Below are positions 5,380 to 10,565 of a stretch of 26,341 bases of DNA, in pieces. This DNA comes from Candidatus Parcubacteria bacterium (GTDB lineage Bacteria > Patescibacteriota > Patescibacteriia > PEXW01): NCBI GenBank assembly GCA_003597955.1, contig QZJU01000010.1:1-26341 (forward strand), written 5' to 3'. Both the position numbers and the translations under genes were made by a program. Numbering within the stretch: the stretch's first letter is position 1; the number at the start of each line of letters is the position of its first letter. The notes under the pieces are model-generated. The model was given only the letters and a program-made list of their open reading frames with translations, had not been told where the DNA came from and did no database searches.

Positions 5380-6591
5380 TTAAATATCCACGCCCACAGT
5401 TTTTCTAAAACCAATCCGGTCCGGAGCATGATGTTTGTCCAATCCAACCAGTTCGCCTTGAGCGATGACTTCTTCGCCGTAGCGATTATTGATTTCATCC
5501 AGAGCTTTTAACAGACGCTCGGGTTTGGGTTTGCTAAACAAAGACAGCTGACCGCTCAAGGGCCTTAAATCAAACAAACCAACGGCAAAAAATTTTGGCG
5601 TGTCTTTCGTGACGCCCGGCGCCAGCATGTTCCAGGCATAACGGAAAAACTTTTGCGTGGTCGTCAAGGGTTCAAAAAGTTTTTGGCTGCCGCCCAAACC
5701 CCCCAAAAGTTCAAAATTCGCATGTGCGTAAACGCTATGCGCTTCCAGCCCCAAAGCGCGCAAGCGCCGACCCGCCCGTTCGGCAAGACGCAAAATCAGA
5801 CTTTTGTGAAAATTCACATCCCGAGTGCGACAGCGCAAAACATGGCTGTGACCGATGGATTTGGGCAATTCGCGAGTTTGCAATCCGCCTAGCTCCAGGC
5901 CGTTCACATTCGCCCACAATTCATAACCTCTGATACCAAAAATTTCCAGCAGGTTGATTGGGCTGTATTGGGCCAACTGATCTAAAGTCTGAATACCCAA
6001 AGCTTGCAGGCGCGGCGCCAAAGCCGCGCCAATGCCCCAGGCTTGCTCCAGTTCCCGGCCCTGCAAATGCGCCAGCCGATTAGCCGGCGTGATGGTTACA
6101 ATGCCGCCCTTGGGCGCAGTGTCGCTGCCGAATTTTGCCAGCCAGCGCGTATAAGCAATGCCCGTGGAACTGCTTAAACATTCCCCCAGCTCCCGCCTGA
6201 TCCGTGCTTTTATTTCCCGGCCGAGCTTAAAAGCCGCCGAAAAAGATTTTACCAGACCCGTCAGATTCAAAAACGCCTCGTCAATGGAATACAATTCAAT
6301 GTCGCTAGTGTACTCCCGGCAAATGCTCATTATGCGCTGGGTGGTCGAATGATATTTCGGCGGGTCAACTTCCACTAATTTTATGGCTGGACATAAAATC
6401 CTGGCCTCTTCCGCCCGGCAGCCAGTCTTCACCCCAAAAGCTTTGGCTTCTTTGCTGGAAGCGATTATGCAGCCCTGCTTGGTCAAGGTCGCGCACACGC
6501 CCACGGGCTGGCCGCGCAAAAAAGGATTGGCCTGCTGCTCCACACTGGCGAAGTAGGAGTTCATGTCAAAATGAAGAATGATTTTTTGCAT
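5380..6591 (-). CDS. dinB: DNA polymerase IV (Y-family, active)
   Basis: This is a translesion polymerase that copies damaged templates. The 403-residue length is slightly above the usual 350-400. Metal ligands are intact: Asp9 in HFDMNSYFASVEQQ and Asp104-Glu105 in YSIDEAFLNL. The palm and fingers are followed by a helix-hairpin-helix region (QAWGIGAALAPRLQALGI) and a little-finger domain (KSIGHSHVLRCRTRD...). A beta-clamp motif may lie near QLSLFSK, around residue 350. The start ATG faces the promoter of the small RNA across a ~60-bp spacer. It differs from the neighbouring Y-family homologue at 662-1522, which has lost the catalytic residues; together they give one active and one dead member close to lexA. 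Confidence 0.93.
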   Translation of the reverse strand: MQKIILHFDMNSYFASVEQQANPFLRGQPVGVCATLTKQGCIIASSKEAKAFGVKTGCRAEEARILCPAIKLVEVDPPKYHSTTQRIMSICREYTSDIELYSIDEAFLNLTGLVKSFSAAFKLGREIKARIRRELGECLSSSTGIAYTRWLAKFGSDTAPKGGIVTITPANRLAHLQGRELEQAWGIGAALAPRLQALGIQTLDQLAQYSPINLLEIFGIRGYELWANVNGLELGGLQTRELPKSIGHSHVLRCRTRDVNFHKSLILRLAERAGRRLRALGLEAHSVYAHANFELLGGLGGSQKLFEPLTTTQKFFRYAWNMLAPGVTKDTPKFFAVGLFDLRPLSGQLSLFSKPKPERLLKALDEINNRYGEEVIAQGELVGLDKHHAPDRIGFRKTVGVDI

Positions 6592-7333: not shown

Positions 7334-7502
7334 GATCTTTACCCCCCCTATTCCAAAAAGCTAAAACCGATGAAATAAGGACTTTTGGCAACAAATTTGC
7401 ATTCTTTTGCTTAAATCTTCTTGCCAAAAAATAATTCCATGCTAAGTTAACACCAGCTCACCTCATGGTCTAGAGCTACTGTTCTTTAAAAAGAACGGAA
7501 AA

Positions 7503-7769
7503 GAATTTGGGAGTTGCTTTTGATGTGATTTTTGAATGTCCCTTGAAGGGAAACCAAGATTGCCATTACTCAAGTAATAGCAAGGGCTTCTTATAATGAG
7601 ATCACCCCTTATGGCCAGGTAGTTCTCCGTCGATGATGAGACCGCAGGTCGCGATGGTGAATCCCTCCTTTGGATGTTCAATCCCGCGATACCCTGCGCA
7701 CGGTATCTCTCGCGAACTACCTCCGGCCTTCAGCGATTTTCACTAAATTGCATCTCAACTCCCAAATTC
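7503..7769 (+). ncRNA. Candidate retron msr/msd RNA
   Basis: A 14-bp perfect inverted repeat closes the unit: a1 at 7503-7516 (GAATTTGGGAGTTG) and a2 at 7756-7769. It extends after a bulge by GATG (7522-7525) / CATC (7751-7754). The 5' part has two short hairpins, as in an msr: TCCCT/AGGGA (7539-7551), and a 10-bp stem at 7560-7569/7574-7583 with a TCAA loop. The 3' part has one long hairpin, as in an msd: GGCCAGGTAGTTC (7613-7625) with GAACTACC-TCC-GGCC (7714-7728), containing an inner stem GATACC/GGTATC (7688-7693/7702-7707). A reverse transcriptase starts 31 nt after a2 on the same strand. This order is the retron hallmark. The branching guanosine and the exact msd ends cannot be placed by eye. 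Confidence 0.75.
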
Positions 7770-7800
7770 CGCTTTAAAAACCAAAGAATTAGGAGAAAAA

Positions 7801-8694
7801 TTGATCCCTAACAATCAAGTTTTCGAACCAGATCAAGCGCCGGCTTTTGAAAAAAGAGTCTTTCGGGATATTAATCCCCTAAGCGGCTCGCGCAAGCTGC
7901 GAATTTTGGGCATGCCCAACGCCGCCATGCGTCAAATTCACCAGAGGCTCATAAAATATCTTCGCATTCAGAAGATAAAATTACCCCATGCCACCTGCTA
8001 TAAACTTGGTGATGGACCCAGAAAAAATGTCGAGCCGCATCGCAAAAACCGATTCTTCTATTTGGTCGACATCCATAACGCTTATGGCAGCGTCCAGCTG
8101 GAAAAACTCGTCCAGGTCTTGTTGTTGTTTGATGCTGAATATCTTATGAATAAACAGCGGACTTCCGAGACTTTGGAAAAGTATTGTTTCTTTCCAAACA
8201 AAAAACCAGCTGGCTTGGTGGTCGGGGCCCCAGCTTCGCCCATATTGTTTAATCTATATGCCGGAGCTTTACTGGATCAAAGGTTAAGTGCTTTTTGCCG
8301 GCAATGGCATATAGTCTATACCCGCTATCTCGATGACCTGACTTTTTCCAGCCGCCGGCCCATAGGCCGTGAAAAAAGAAAGCTGATCAGAAAAATTATT
8401 GCTGAGGCCGGTTTAAGCCTAAGCCATCACAAGGCTAAAGTCTCTGACCTCAAAAAAACCCCGATCGTTGTCACGGGAATTGGCATTGCGCATGGCGGCA
8501 GACTCTTTCTGCCCAGACACTTCTTGCGAAGGTTGCGGGGCTTAATTCACGCGGATCTGAAAAAACCCCGAGTTGATCCCGCGGTCATTCGCGGCATGAT
8601 GGGAGTTTTCTGGTCAATCCGACCAGTAAAATTCAATGCCAGCGAGCAAAAGCTGGTTGATCTGTACCTTAAATGGCAAAAGACAAGATTATAA
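7801..8694 (+). CDS. Retron-type reverse transcriptase
   Basis: The enzyme would prime on its own RNA and make a small RNA-linked cDNA. Motifs run in order: NAxxH-type motif NVEPH (residues 76-80); palm aspartate in VDIHNAYGS (Asp90); VGAPASP (141-147), equivalent to the QGxPxSP turn; catalytic YLDD (176-179) within RYLDDLTFSS; and VTG (224-226) in VVTGIGI. The NAxxH and VTG pair is typical of retron enzymes, and the SQ variant of diversity-generating RTs is absent. At 297 residues it is near the short end for retron RTs, with no extra domain. Translation starts at TTG with AGGAG at 7791-7795. The candidate msr/msd lies directly upstream, and the neighbours downstream are ribosomal genes on the other strand, so no effector is linked. 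Confidence 0.85.
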   Translation: MIPNNQVFEPDQAPAFEKRVFRDINPLSGSRKLRILGMPNAAMRQIHQRLIKYLRIQKIKLPHATCYKLGDGPRKNVEPHRKNRFFYLVDIHNAYGSVQLEKLVQVLLLFDAEYLMNKQRTSETLEKYCFFPNKKPAGLVVGAPASPILFNLYAGALLDQRLSAFCRQWHIVYTRYLDDLTFSSRRPIGREKRKLIRKIIAEAGLSLSHHKAKVSDLKKTPIVVTGIGIAHGGRLFLPRHFLRRLRGLIHADLKKPRVDPAVIRGMMGVFWSIRPVKFNASEQKLVDLYLKWQKTRL

Positions 8695-8711
8695 AAATCT
8701 TGTCTTTTTTT
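8680..8711 (+). terminator. Terminator overlapping the end of the RT gene
   Basis: AAGACAAGATT (8680-8690) pairs perfectly with AATCTTGTCTT (8696-8706) and a T run follows. The left arm lies inside the last codons of the RT gene. In the other direction it may also terminate rplJ-rplL transcription. Confidence 0.8.
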
Positions 8712-8729
8712 AAAATCTTTTTTGTCGGC

Positions 8730-9143
8730 TTACTTCAAAGTCACGCTGGCGCCGGCTTCCTCCAATTTCTTCTTCAGTTCCTCAGCTTCAGCTTTGCTGG
8801 CGTTTTCTTTGACAATCTTTGGCGCGCCGTCGGCAATATCCTTGGCTTCTTTCAAGCCTTTGCCCGTCACTTCACGCAAAACTTTTATAACCGCGATTTT
8901 GCTGCCGCCGGCCGAAGTCAATTCCACATTGAAAGCGGTTTTTTCTTCAGCGCTAGCCTCGCCAGCCGCGGCACCTGCCGCAGGCATGGCGCCCATCATC
9001 ACGGGCGCGGCGGCGGAAACGCCGAATTTATCTTCCAGGACTTTGACTAATTCAGCCAAGTCCACGACCGACAATTTTTCGATCTGTTCCACCAAAGCTT
9101 TGAACTTCTCAGGAACTTCCACGTTTTTTTTCTCTTCTGCCAT
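8730..9143 (-). CDS. rplL: 50S ribosomal protein L7/L12
   Basis: L7/L12 forms the flexible stalk dimers that recruit translation factors to the ribosome. The 137-residue protein has the N-terminal dimerisation helices, an Ala/Gly-rich hinge ([19 protein letters not shown], about residues 45-63) and the C-terminal globular domain with [23 protein letters not shown], the factor-binding surface. It sits 31 bp downstream of rplJ in the canonical order and is governed by the same leader. It converges with the retron RT, sharing the 8680-8711 hairpin region. Confidence 0.97.
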
Positions 9144-9174
9144 AGTTTTAAAAATTAATTATTAATTATTAAAA

Positions 9175-9699
9175 TTAAGCGGTTTTTTCAGCTCGGGCTT
9201 TCAAGACCTGCACGAAGCCGCGCAAGGGACCGGCGCAGACATTCACCAAGCCACTGATCGGCGCTTTGATTGAACCGATCAATTTTGCCAACAAAACTTC
9301 CTTGGTCGGCAGGTTTGCCAAACTCTTCACTTCAGCCGGAGTCAACCATTTCCCATTCAGCAACCCCCCGACAAATTGGAGCTTTTTGTTGGTTTTGGCA
9401 AAGGCATGCAAAATACTGGCTGGCTTAACCTCATCCTCCAGGCCAAAAGCAATGCCGACATTGCCGCGGAAGGCCTTTAGGGGCTCCGCTTCATATTTTT
9501 TTTCAGCTAGTGCCAGTTTAAACAAAGTCTTTTTCAGGCCCAAAAAGTTGACTTTCGCCTCACGCATTTCCTTTCGTAATTTAGTAATTTCCTTAACGGT
9601 CAAACCGTCAATCAAAGCGAAAATCGCCACTCTCATTTGATCTAAATTTTCTTGGAATTTTTTGACGGTTTCCTGTTTTTGAAGCTTGGTTTTTGCCAT
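9175..9699 (-). CDS. rplJ: 50S ribosomal protein L10
   Basis: L10 anchors the L7/L12 dimers to 23S rRNA and represses its own operon by binding the mRNA leader. I start the protein at the ATG at 9699 (MAKTKLQKQETVKKFQ). An in-frame ATG 14 codons upstream would translate through the attenuator hairpin and is unlikely. The 174 residues include the conserved core FLGLKKTLFKLALAE and FRGNVGIAFG, and a C-terminal helix that binds L7/L12. Confidence 0.95.
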   Translation of the reverse strand: MAKTKLQKQETVKKFQENLDQMRVAIFALIDGLTVKEITKLRKEMREAKVNFLGLKKTLFKLALAEKKYEAEPLKAFRGNVGIAFGLEDEVKPASILHAFAKTNKKLQFVGGLLNGKWLTPAEVKSLANLPTKEVLLAKLIGSIKAPISGLVNVCAGPLRGFVQVLKARAEKTA

Positions 9700-9833
9700 A
9701 AAATTAATAAAAAAATCTGTGTTTCCACAGAGACGCTTCACAAACCTTTAATGGGTTTGCTTAGGCTTTCCTGCGTAGGTTTTACGCCCCTTTTCTGGTG
9801 GGGCCACCTACGGTCTGTGGATACCGTTAATCC
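9700..9833 (-). promoter_or_regulatory. L10 leader RNA (rplJ-rplL autoregulation)
   Basis: Read on the minus strand, this leader carries the expected L10-binding fold: an AGACCGTAGGTGG arm and the later ACCTACGC arm pair (GTAGGT/ACCTAC), enclosing CCCC...GGGG. A further hairpin (AAACC/GGTTT) and a terminator follow just before rplJ. L10 leaders are known from many bacteria. In the terminator-bearing form, L10 binding would favour termination. The exact competing pairing is not resolved here. Confidence 0.75.
9709..9731 (-). terminator. Attenuator immediately before rplJ
   Basis: On the minus strand TCTGTG (9726-9731) pairs with CACAGA (9716-9721) around GAAA and is followed by seven U (9709-9715). 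It ends ten bases before the rplJ start codon, so it most likely works as a regulated terminator within the L10 leader. Confidence 0.8.
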
Positions 9834-9863
9834 AGTTTACAAAAATCCTCTATATTTTGTCAA
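9834..9863 (-). promoter_or_regulatory. Promoter of rplJ-rplL
   Basis: On the minus strand, -35 TTGACA (9858-9863) and -10 TAAACT (9834-9839) have an 18-bp spacing, placing the start of transcription at the head of the L10 leader. Confidence 0.75.
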
Positions 9864-9869
9864 ATCCGT

Positions 9870-10565
9870 TTAGTTAATGATTGTTCCGTGAATGATATCT
9901 TGACCGGAAAGTGTATTTTTCATGTTCTTAAAATCTTTCCCGTTACAGATTATTACCCGCATCCCCCACTTGCTCGCCCACCGGCTGGCGACGGGATCAA
10001 AAGGCACATTGGCTCCGGGATCCCATTTGGTGCCTACCAATTTTTGAAAAGCCGGCCAGGAAATTTTTTTAATGGGCTTGGCGGATTTGAATTTGCGCGG
10101 ATCGCAGGTGTACACCCAAGGAATGTTTGAGAGATTGATAATAGTTTTGGCTTTGTATGCCCGGGCTAAAAGCACGGCGTCATAATCCGTGGAACAGCCG
10201 GGCTTAAAACCCGCCGCTATAATTATTGGCGCTGTGATTTTCGGATTTATCTTACGGCGGTTAGTGATTATTTTTGGGTAGGCCGATGTCCTGAAAATCG
10301 TTCTTAACAAATGCGCATTCAACCGAGTAGCGTGAATGCCCAGCCAATCCAAATCTTCATCGGTTAAACGGCTAACTGCTTTGGCGCCGGTTTGATACAG
10401 CCTGGCAATTTTCCCGCCGCCGACAATAATGATGAACTTCTGGCCTTTTTTTATTTGCGCCAAGATTAAACTTCGAAACCTTTTTAAAAAATTCAAATCT
10501 AAATCATCTGGCACCACTAAAGAACCGCCCAGAGAAATGACTATTGGCGGATTATTCTTTTTCAT
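9870..10565 (-). CDS. pyrH: UMP kinase, archaeal-like
   Basis: It phosphorylates UMP to UDP in pyrimidine synthesis. The protein is 231 residues of the amino-acid-kinase fold: P-loop-like ISLGGSLVVPD near the N-terminus, FIIIVGGGKIARLYQ, LDWLGIHATRLNAHLLR, a central GCSTDYDAVLLA and DPRKFKSAKPIKKI. The VGGG..AR.Y and LDWLGI.ATR.NA.LLR signatures match the short archaeal-type UMP kinases more than the usual bacterial PyrH, a known trait of CPR genomes. It is the last gene of a tightly spaced reverse-strand run with mltG (3 bp apart). Confidence 0.88.
   Translation of the reverse strand: MKKNNPPIVISLGGSLVVPDDLDLNFLKRFRSLILAQIKKGQKFIIIVGGGKIARLYQTGAKAVSRLTDEDLDWLGIHATRLNAHLLRTIFRTSAYPKIITNRRKINPKITAPIIIAAGFKPGCSTDYDAVLLARAYKAKTIINLSNIPWVYTCDPRKFKSAKPIKKISWPAFQKLVGTKWDPGANVPFDPVASRWASKWGMRVIICNGKDFKNMKNTLSGQDIIHGTIIN

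Follow-up and report, generated by a model that had tools for sequence, protein, structure and literature searches.

Retrons are understood as guards of effectors, and since guard and effector have to move as one, the effector is normally encoded in cis. The closest described relatives of the locus reported here are the PADLOC II-A, III-A and I-A retrons and the NCBIfam St85 retrons, which share with it a common reverse transcriptase (RT) family, the region Y motif, the N and H of the region X motif, and an a1/a2-closed RNA preceding the RT gene. Typed reference RTs score 320–550 bits on their own PADLOC model, whereas the RT described here reaches only ~95–117 bits on the models of typed retrons, and the HTH, PtuA/HNH, PRTase or TIR partners of the typed systems are all missing from the clade to which it belongs. 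Retrons of this kind have precedents, in that some show no clear association with an effector gene (reviewed in PMC8867640) and Retron-Bth1, which has no obvious effector, still makes RT-DNA (PMC12548924). Like the members of our clade, these lone retrons (PMC8867640) and Bth1 consist of an RT and an RNA with no apparent effector; Bth1, however, is a single untyped case from Bacillus that is interrupted by a group II intron (PMC12548924), whereas here an entire CPR clade is effector-less. A further parallel is DRT2 (UG2), in which the RT likewise works with an adjoining structured RNA (PMC12039810), but DRT2 belongs to a different RT family and the RNA of our locus shows no read-through frame. 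No description of a CPR retron was found in the open literature, a scope outside which lie the Mestre 2020 classification and the Khan census. Lone retrons were thus known before; what is new is an untyped CPR lineage that is effector-less throughout the examined loci.

The locus lies in a stretch of 26,341 nucleotides from a Candidatus Parcubacteria bacterium, which we refer to as the window. The retron unit occupies positions 7503–8715 of the plus strand, from a1 through a hairpin terminator, and comprises the following features.

7503–7516, plus strand: a1 arm of a retron-type inverted repeat, GAATTTGGGAGTTG (inverted-repeat search, shuffle control 2/400)
7503–7769, plus strand: msr-msd-like non-coding RNA closed by a1/a2 (fold z of -6.2; equivalents in relatives)
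7560–7583, plus strand: msr-type hairpin 1, with 8 pairs and a TCAA loop, 45 nt past a1 (fold)
7584–7608, plus strand: msr-type hairpin 2 (fold)
7613–7728, plus strand: msd-type hairpin, long, imperfect and branched, with inner stems (fold)
7756–7769, plus strand: a2 arm, CAACTCCCAAATTC (inverted-repeat search)
7791–7795, plus strand: Shine-Dalgarno-like AGGAG ahead of the TTG start (read directly)
7801–8694, plus strand: retron-type reverse transcriptase of 297 aa with a TTG start at 7801 (open reading frame and profile matches)
8026–8040, plus strand: region X motif NVEPH (retron NAxxH), residues 76–80 (motif reading)
8326–8337, plus strand: catalytic YLDD, residues 176–179 (motif reading)
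8470–8478, plus strand: region Y motif VTG, residues 224–226 (motif reading)
8678–8715, plus strand: 13-bp hairpin and T-run, a probable terminator over the RT stop codon (inverted-repeat search and direct reading)

This layout bears out, element by element, what an earlier note on this DNA had claimed: a 14-bp a1/a2 repeat, two short msr-type hairpins, a long msd-type hairpin with inner stems, an AGGAG/TTG start, an RT carrying NVEPH, YLDD and VTG, and a terminator overlapping the 3' end of the RT gene. The a1 and a2 arms are complementary at 14/14 nt (100%) across a spacing of 239 nt, and when the 500 bp preceding the RT are dinucleotide-shuffled, 2/400 shuffles yield an inverted repeat as good. 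The RNA spanning 7500–7772 folds at -97.9 kcal/mol (z of -6.16), and none of 200 shuffles is equally stable. The a1/a2 pairing extends inward as a long irregular stem that was absent from the earlier note, and the window RNA would thus be a closed multibranch structure within which, we infer, the long hairpin at 7613–7728 is the template for msDNA. The RT start sits 32 nt beyond the closed RNA, and the terminator is built from a 13-bp inverted repeat (8678–8690/8696–8708) followed by a T-run. No sigma-70-like promoter for the unit passes a simple scan, and the window RNA matches no family and no intron in Rfam under strict or permissive settings. The bases at the inner end of a1 are GTTGC (TTGC), and the canonical priming AGC is absent; exceptions to this motif are known, such as Se72, which has no apparent priming G (PMC6868368).

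Several lines of evidence place the protein among retron RTs. The three motifs lie in an intact 297-aa frame, in which Pfam recognizes RVT_1 (2.6e-16) and no extra domain. The best NCBIfam model is retron_St85_RT (7.8e-34), with a score of 117 bits that falls below the cut-off of 235 bits for that model, and the scores on the group II and Drt2 models are far lower still (28.6 bits vs a cut-off of 300 and 34.7 bits vs a cut-off of 390, respectively). On the PADLOC models the best matches are RT_II-A (112 bits) and III-A, at ~100–112 bits, so that no clear type is indicated. Sequence matches in the PDB are almost all retron RTs, the first being the retron Ec83 RT (6.9e-20). NAxxH, located between motifs 2 and 3, and VTG, which opens region Y, are hallmarks of retron RTs, NAxxH being missing from group II and DGR RTs (PMC6868368). 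In the window, the N and H of NAxxH are kept and the A is replaced by V; among 16 validated retron RTs, two depart from this motif as well, but at the N (PMC6868368). An AlphaFold model from a two-row alignment had a pLDDT of 45 and was set aside.

The window RT is one of nine RTs, found in eight CPR genomes, that together form a clade. The eight others, from seven CPR genomes, share 31–46% identity with the window RT and are as follows.

Clade members besides the window: L002 (Candidatus Harrisonbacteria), L006, L007, L031 and L032 (both from genome G384), L033 (genome G784), L034 and L035

Carriers make up ~1% of the sampled genomes, and G384 carries its two members at separate loci, one of them between rplA and rplJ. 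The frames of every clade member are free of internal stops, which suggests that selection keeps the clade. The Y and DD of YxDD are invariant; region X reads NVxxH or NIxxH with two outliers, and region Y of the relatives reads ITG, ING, IAG or LNG. In a tree with five outgroup rows (group II/RT-Cas1), the nine RTs formed one clade supported at 98/95, with values of 98/95 to 99/99 overall. This clade is nested among CPR RTs, and a 100/100 split separates the retron side, on which it lies, from the group II and RT-Cas1 sequences. The phylogenetic check put forward in the earlier note thus came out in favor of its reading, with the window RT placed among retron RTs and apart from those of group II introns. 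Not represented in this tree are some retron types and the RTs of DGR, Abi and DRT systems; in it, the window RT joins no typed group and falls in a clade of its own. With a single long-branch group II outgroup the clade was still recovered but stood apart from the typed retrons, whereas with five outgroup rows it joined the other CPR retron RTs, and an AU test of the alternative branching gave p = 0.09. Which RTs belong to the clade is thus firmly established, but its exact branching point shifts with the outgroup and is unsure. Viral and plasmid relatives of the RT are distant only, and mostly typed retrons. The nearest RT relatives of the clade in the tree are sister CPR RTs of family f28; unlike the clade, the f28 loci L008, L036 and L037 have no significant a1/a2 repeat upstream. 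At L008 (9216–11138, genome G278), this sister group includes a fusion between an RT and a complete YaaA domain (peroxide stress, PF03883).

The RNA can be followed through most of the clade. A long a1/a2 repeat lies upstream of the RT at eight of the nine loci, with a different sequence in each, and at seven of these eight it is equalled by at most 5/400 shuffles. The remaining locus, L035, was equalled by 44/400 shuffles in a 500-bp search interval and by 0/60 in a 560-bp interval, because the shorter interval cuts off the best repeat. The clade RNAs have minimum free energy z-scores between -2.8 and -7.5; an RT-coding control scores -1.2 and an upstream intergenic control -3.65, so that a z near -3 is not decisive by itself. 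Across seven alignable loci the arms share a core YCTGRGG, 9/11 of their pairs are altered on both sides and their covariation score is 0.73 vs 0.29 when shuffled. Hairpin 1, whose position is similar and whose stem covaries in most relatives, scores 0.92 vs 0.31. Both counts lean towards pairing because the arms and hairpins were picked for complementarity. Hairpin 1 usually lies 31–49 nt past a1 and often has a TCAA-like loop, both with exceptions. The msd region varies in shape, being a single long hairpin in some relatives and many small hairpins in others. Of the two stems whose covariation in homologs the earlier note had proposed as a check, a1/a2 thus came out in favor of its reading, and the long msd hairpin keeps no constant shape. 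AGC follows a1 in some relatives only (TAGC in L006, GAGC in unit 1 of L033).

Two loci depart from the common arrangement. L007 has no folded RNA upstream of its RT (z of -0.8); a folded RNA with a z of -7.2 and the family a1 motif, CCTGGGG, lies downstream on the same strand, where the 8-bp repeat taken alone is not significant. At this locus (8600–10290) a 43-nt copy of the dnaJ 3' end (81%) lies beyond the retron, whose RNA is 3' of the RT, a layout that looks as if the unit had been inserted at the dnaJ gene end. At L033 (G784; reverse complement, 5716–6470) two tandem retron-like RNAs precede one RT, with a1/a2 at 5730–5998 and 6104–6375 in oriented coordinates. A near-identical terminator comes after each, and the two have hairpin 1 and the 3' end in common and differ in their middles. 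We know of no described retron with two tandem RNAs for one RT. Near-identical terminators (AAAAGAACGGCC...CGGCCGTTCTTTTTTTATTTTG) also stand on both sides of this retron (reverse complement, 5641–5700 and 7480–7525) and are perhaps an insertion footprint.

An adjacent effector is lacking both in the window and among the relatives, in agreement with the earlier note. The window RT offers no fused effector domain, being a 297-aa protein with RVT_1 only, and no effector gene accompanies it, which sets the locus apart from the typed tripartite retron defence systems (types I–XIII). As had been claimed for this minimal RT, it is followed by rplL (L7/L12; 8730–9143), which lies on the minus strand. 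When the ORFs found up to 7 kb from the RT were compared all against all across the nine loci, no partner gene recurred other than through rplJ/rplL synteny. The matches that did appear were rplJ/rplL near the RT in the window, L033 and L031, other genes that L033 and the window share in synteny, and a few isolated two-locus matches. The upstream 98-aa gene and dinB near the window retron were tried as effectors and rejected, as both occur in the genus-mate G381, where the site is empty. The gene order in G381, which has no retron, is a 752-aa gene, dinB, an 89-aa gene, rplL and rplJ, with ~290 bp at the site of the window retron. Because the 98-aa gene, dinB and rplL all occur in this retron-free genome, none of these neighbors is the effector of the retron. 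The retron is also absent at the matching site, between a 740-aa gene and rplL, in G812, a genome from the order of G784. These empty sites in relatives of the hosts indicate that the retron is accessory cargo.

Elsewhere in CPR, three other retron RTs (L080, L081 and L082, from G1004, G928 and G1080) are followed in 3/3 cases by genes for an AAA ATPase and a VWA-domain protein, possibly a retron effector pair. The recurrence of this pair shows that a search of this kind detects partners where they exist. The Harrisonbacteria retron (L002, 7290–7515) lies directly 3' of two tRNA-like genes identified by eye, with no integrase near; tRNA genes are a usual integration site. Two further features of the window are a 6.6-kb stretch with a LexA-like repressor and two Y-family (DinB/ImuB-like) polymerase genes (37–570, 662–1522 and 5380–6591), and a short minus-strand ORF by the contig end (25707–25913) that resembles a tyrosine recombinase C terminus (HQFRHTFA...LGH) and is apparently truncated.

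Judging from sequence comparison, we propose that the locus is probably a chromosomal retron with two components, an RT and an a1/a2-closed RNA, that belongs to a CPR-specific lineage and has no effector in cis. The best reading of the clade is that it represents a stand-alone retron lineage that would make msDNA. By analogy with known retron biochemistry, the transcript would fold so that a1 pairs with a2, the RT would bind the msr hairpins via its C-terminal region Y, synthesis would be primed from the 2'-OH at the inner end of a1, and the msd part would be copied into branched msDNA, yielding an RNA-DNA-protein particle. With no effector in cis, either this particle or its cDNA would itself be active, or it would control a host protein or one that is distantly encoded. 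As to its role, we suggest with low confidence an accessory, defence-like element, since it resembles other defence cargo in its rarity, its patchy distribution and its varied sites. The missing canonical AGC in the window, the variable shape of the msd and the missing upstream RNA of L007 count against the retron reading.

Four other explanations were weighed. The first is that of a tripartite retron in which the msDNA particle restrains, in the manner of a toxin-antitoxin system, an effector that is either encoded at some other place in the genome or supplied as a core host protein. In keeping with such an arrangement, retrons are known to guard effectors, the AAA ATPase and VWA protein recur beside other CPR retrons, and the nearest sister group contains the RT-YaaA fusion. 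We nevertheless regard it as somewhat unlikely, given that the comparison of neighboring ORFs reveals a recurring gene within 7 kb in 0/9 loci once rplJ/rplL synteny is set aside, and that a retron which moves or is lost, as the empty sites indicate, would normally have its effector in cis.

A second possibility is that the cDNA is itself the effector, as in DRT2 or other effector-less defence RTs. This would account for a two-component system with no effector at nine loci, for the long multi-hairpin RNAs of the relatives and for the one relative with two different RNAs per RT, and the DRT2 system provides a precedent (PMC12039810). The RT is, however, of retron type (34.7 bits on the DRT2 model vs a cut-off of 390), and a DRT2-like reading frame through the RNA was sought in nine RNAs, none of which has a frame longer than those of shuffles or above chance. 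We therefore consider this explanation unlikely in its turn.

It could also be argued that the locus is a retron in decay, now functionless after the loss of its effector, since it is rare and patchy, the effector is absent and the canonical AGC is missing in the window. Against this, nine diverged copies (the other eight with 31–46% identity to the window RT) all retain intact frames and YxDD, and the long a1/a2 repeat is kept in 8/9; a relic clade would look otherwise, and we hold decay to be improbable. No close relatives suited to dN/dS analysis were found. Finally, although DGRs are prominent in the genomes of candidate phyla (PMC8867640), it is highly improbable that the RT belongs to another class (group II intron, DGR or CRISPR-associated RT), given that group II and RT-Cas1 are split off at 100/100, that the group II model gives only 28.6 bits, that NxxxH and VTG are present where group II and DGR RTs lack NAxxH (PMC6868368), and that the RNA (query 7440–7800) is not repeated elsewhere in the genome in a form fit to be a variable repeat. 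The case against a DGR is made by the HMM results, the motifs and the single-copy RNA, DGR RTs being absent from the tree.

Within the preferred reading of a two-component retron without a cis effector, a bolder and rather doubtful hypothesis may be entertained, namely that in these CPR-specific retrons the RT-RNA-cDNA particle is the active agent and operates without any protein effector. The element would then spread as a small cassette of ~1.2–1.5 kb with no integrase of its own, whose RNA can be duplicated (as in G784) and moved across the RT (as in G358).

A 297-aa RT with a compact RNA could extend the set of msDNA-producing tools. For the retron family, the clade contributes an untyped lineage of RTs that branches deeply and comes from genomes of ~1 Mb, where each kilobase costs. 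The persistence of an intact lineage with no effector in cis across large evolutionary distances would show either that the RT-RNA part can be selected alone or that effectors can come in trans.
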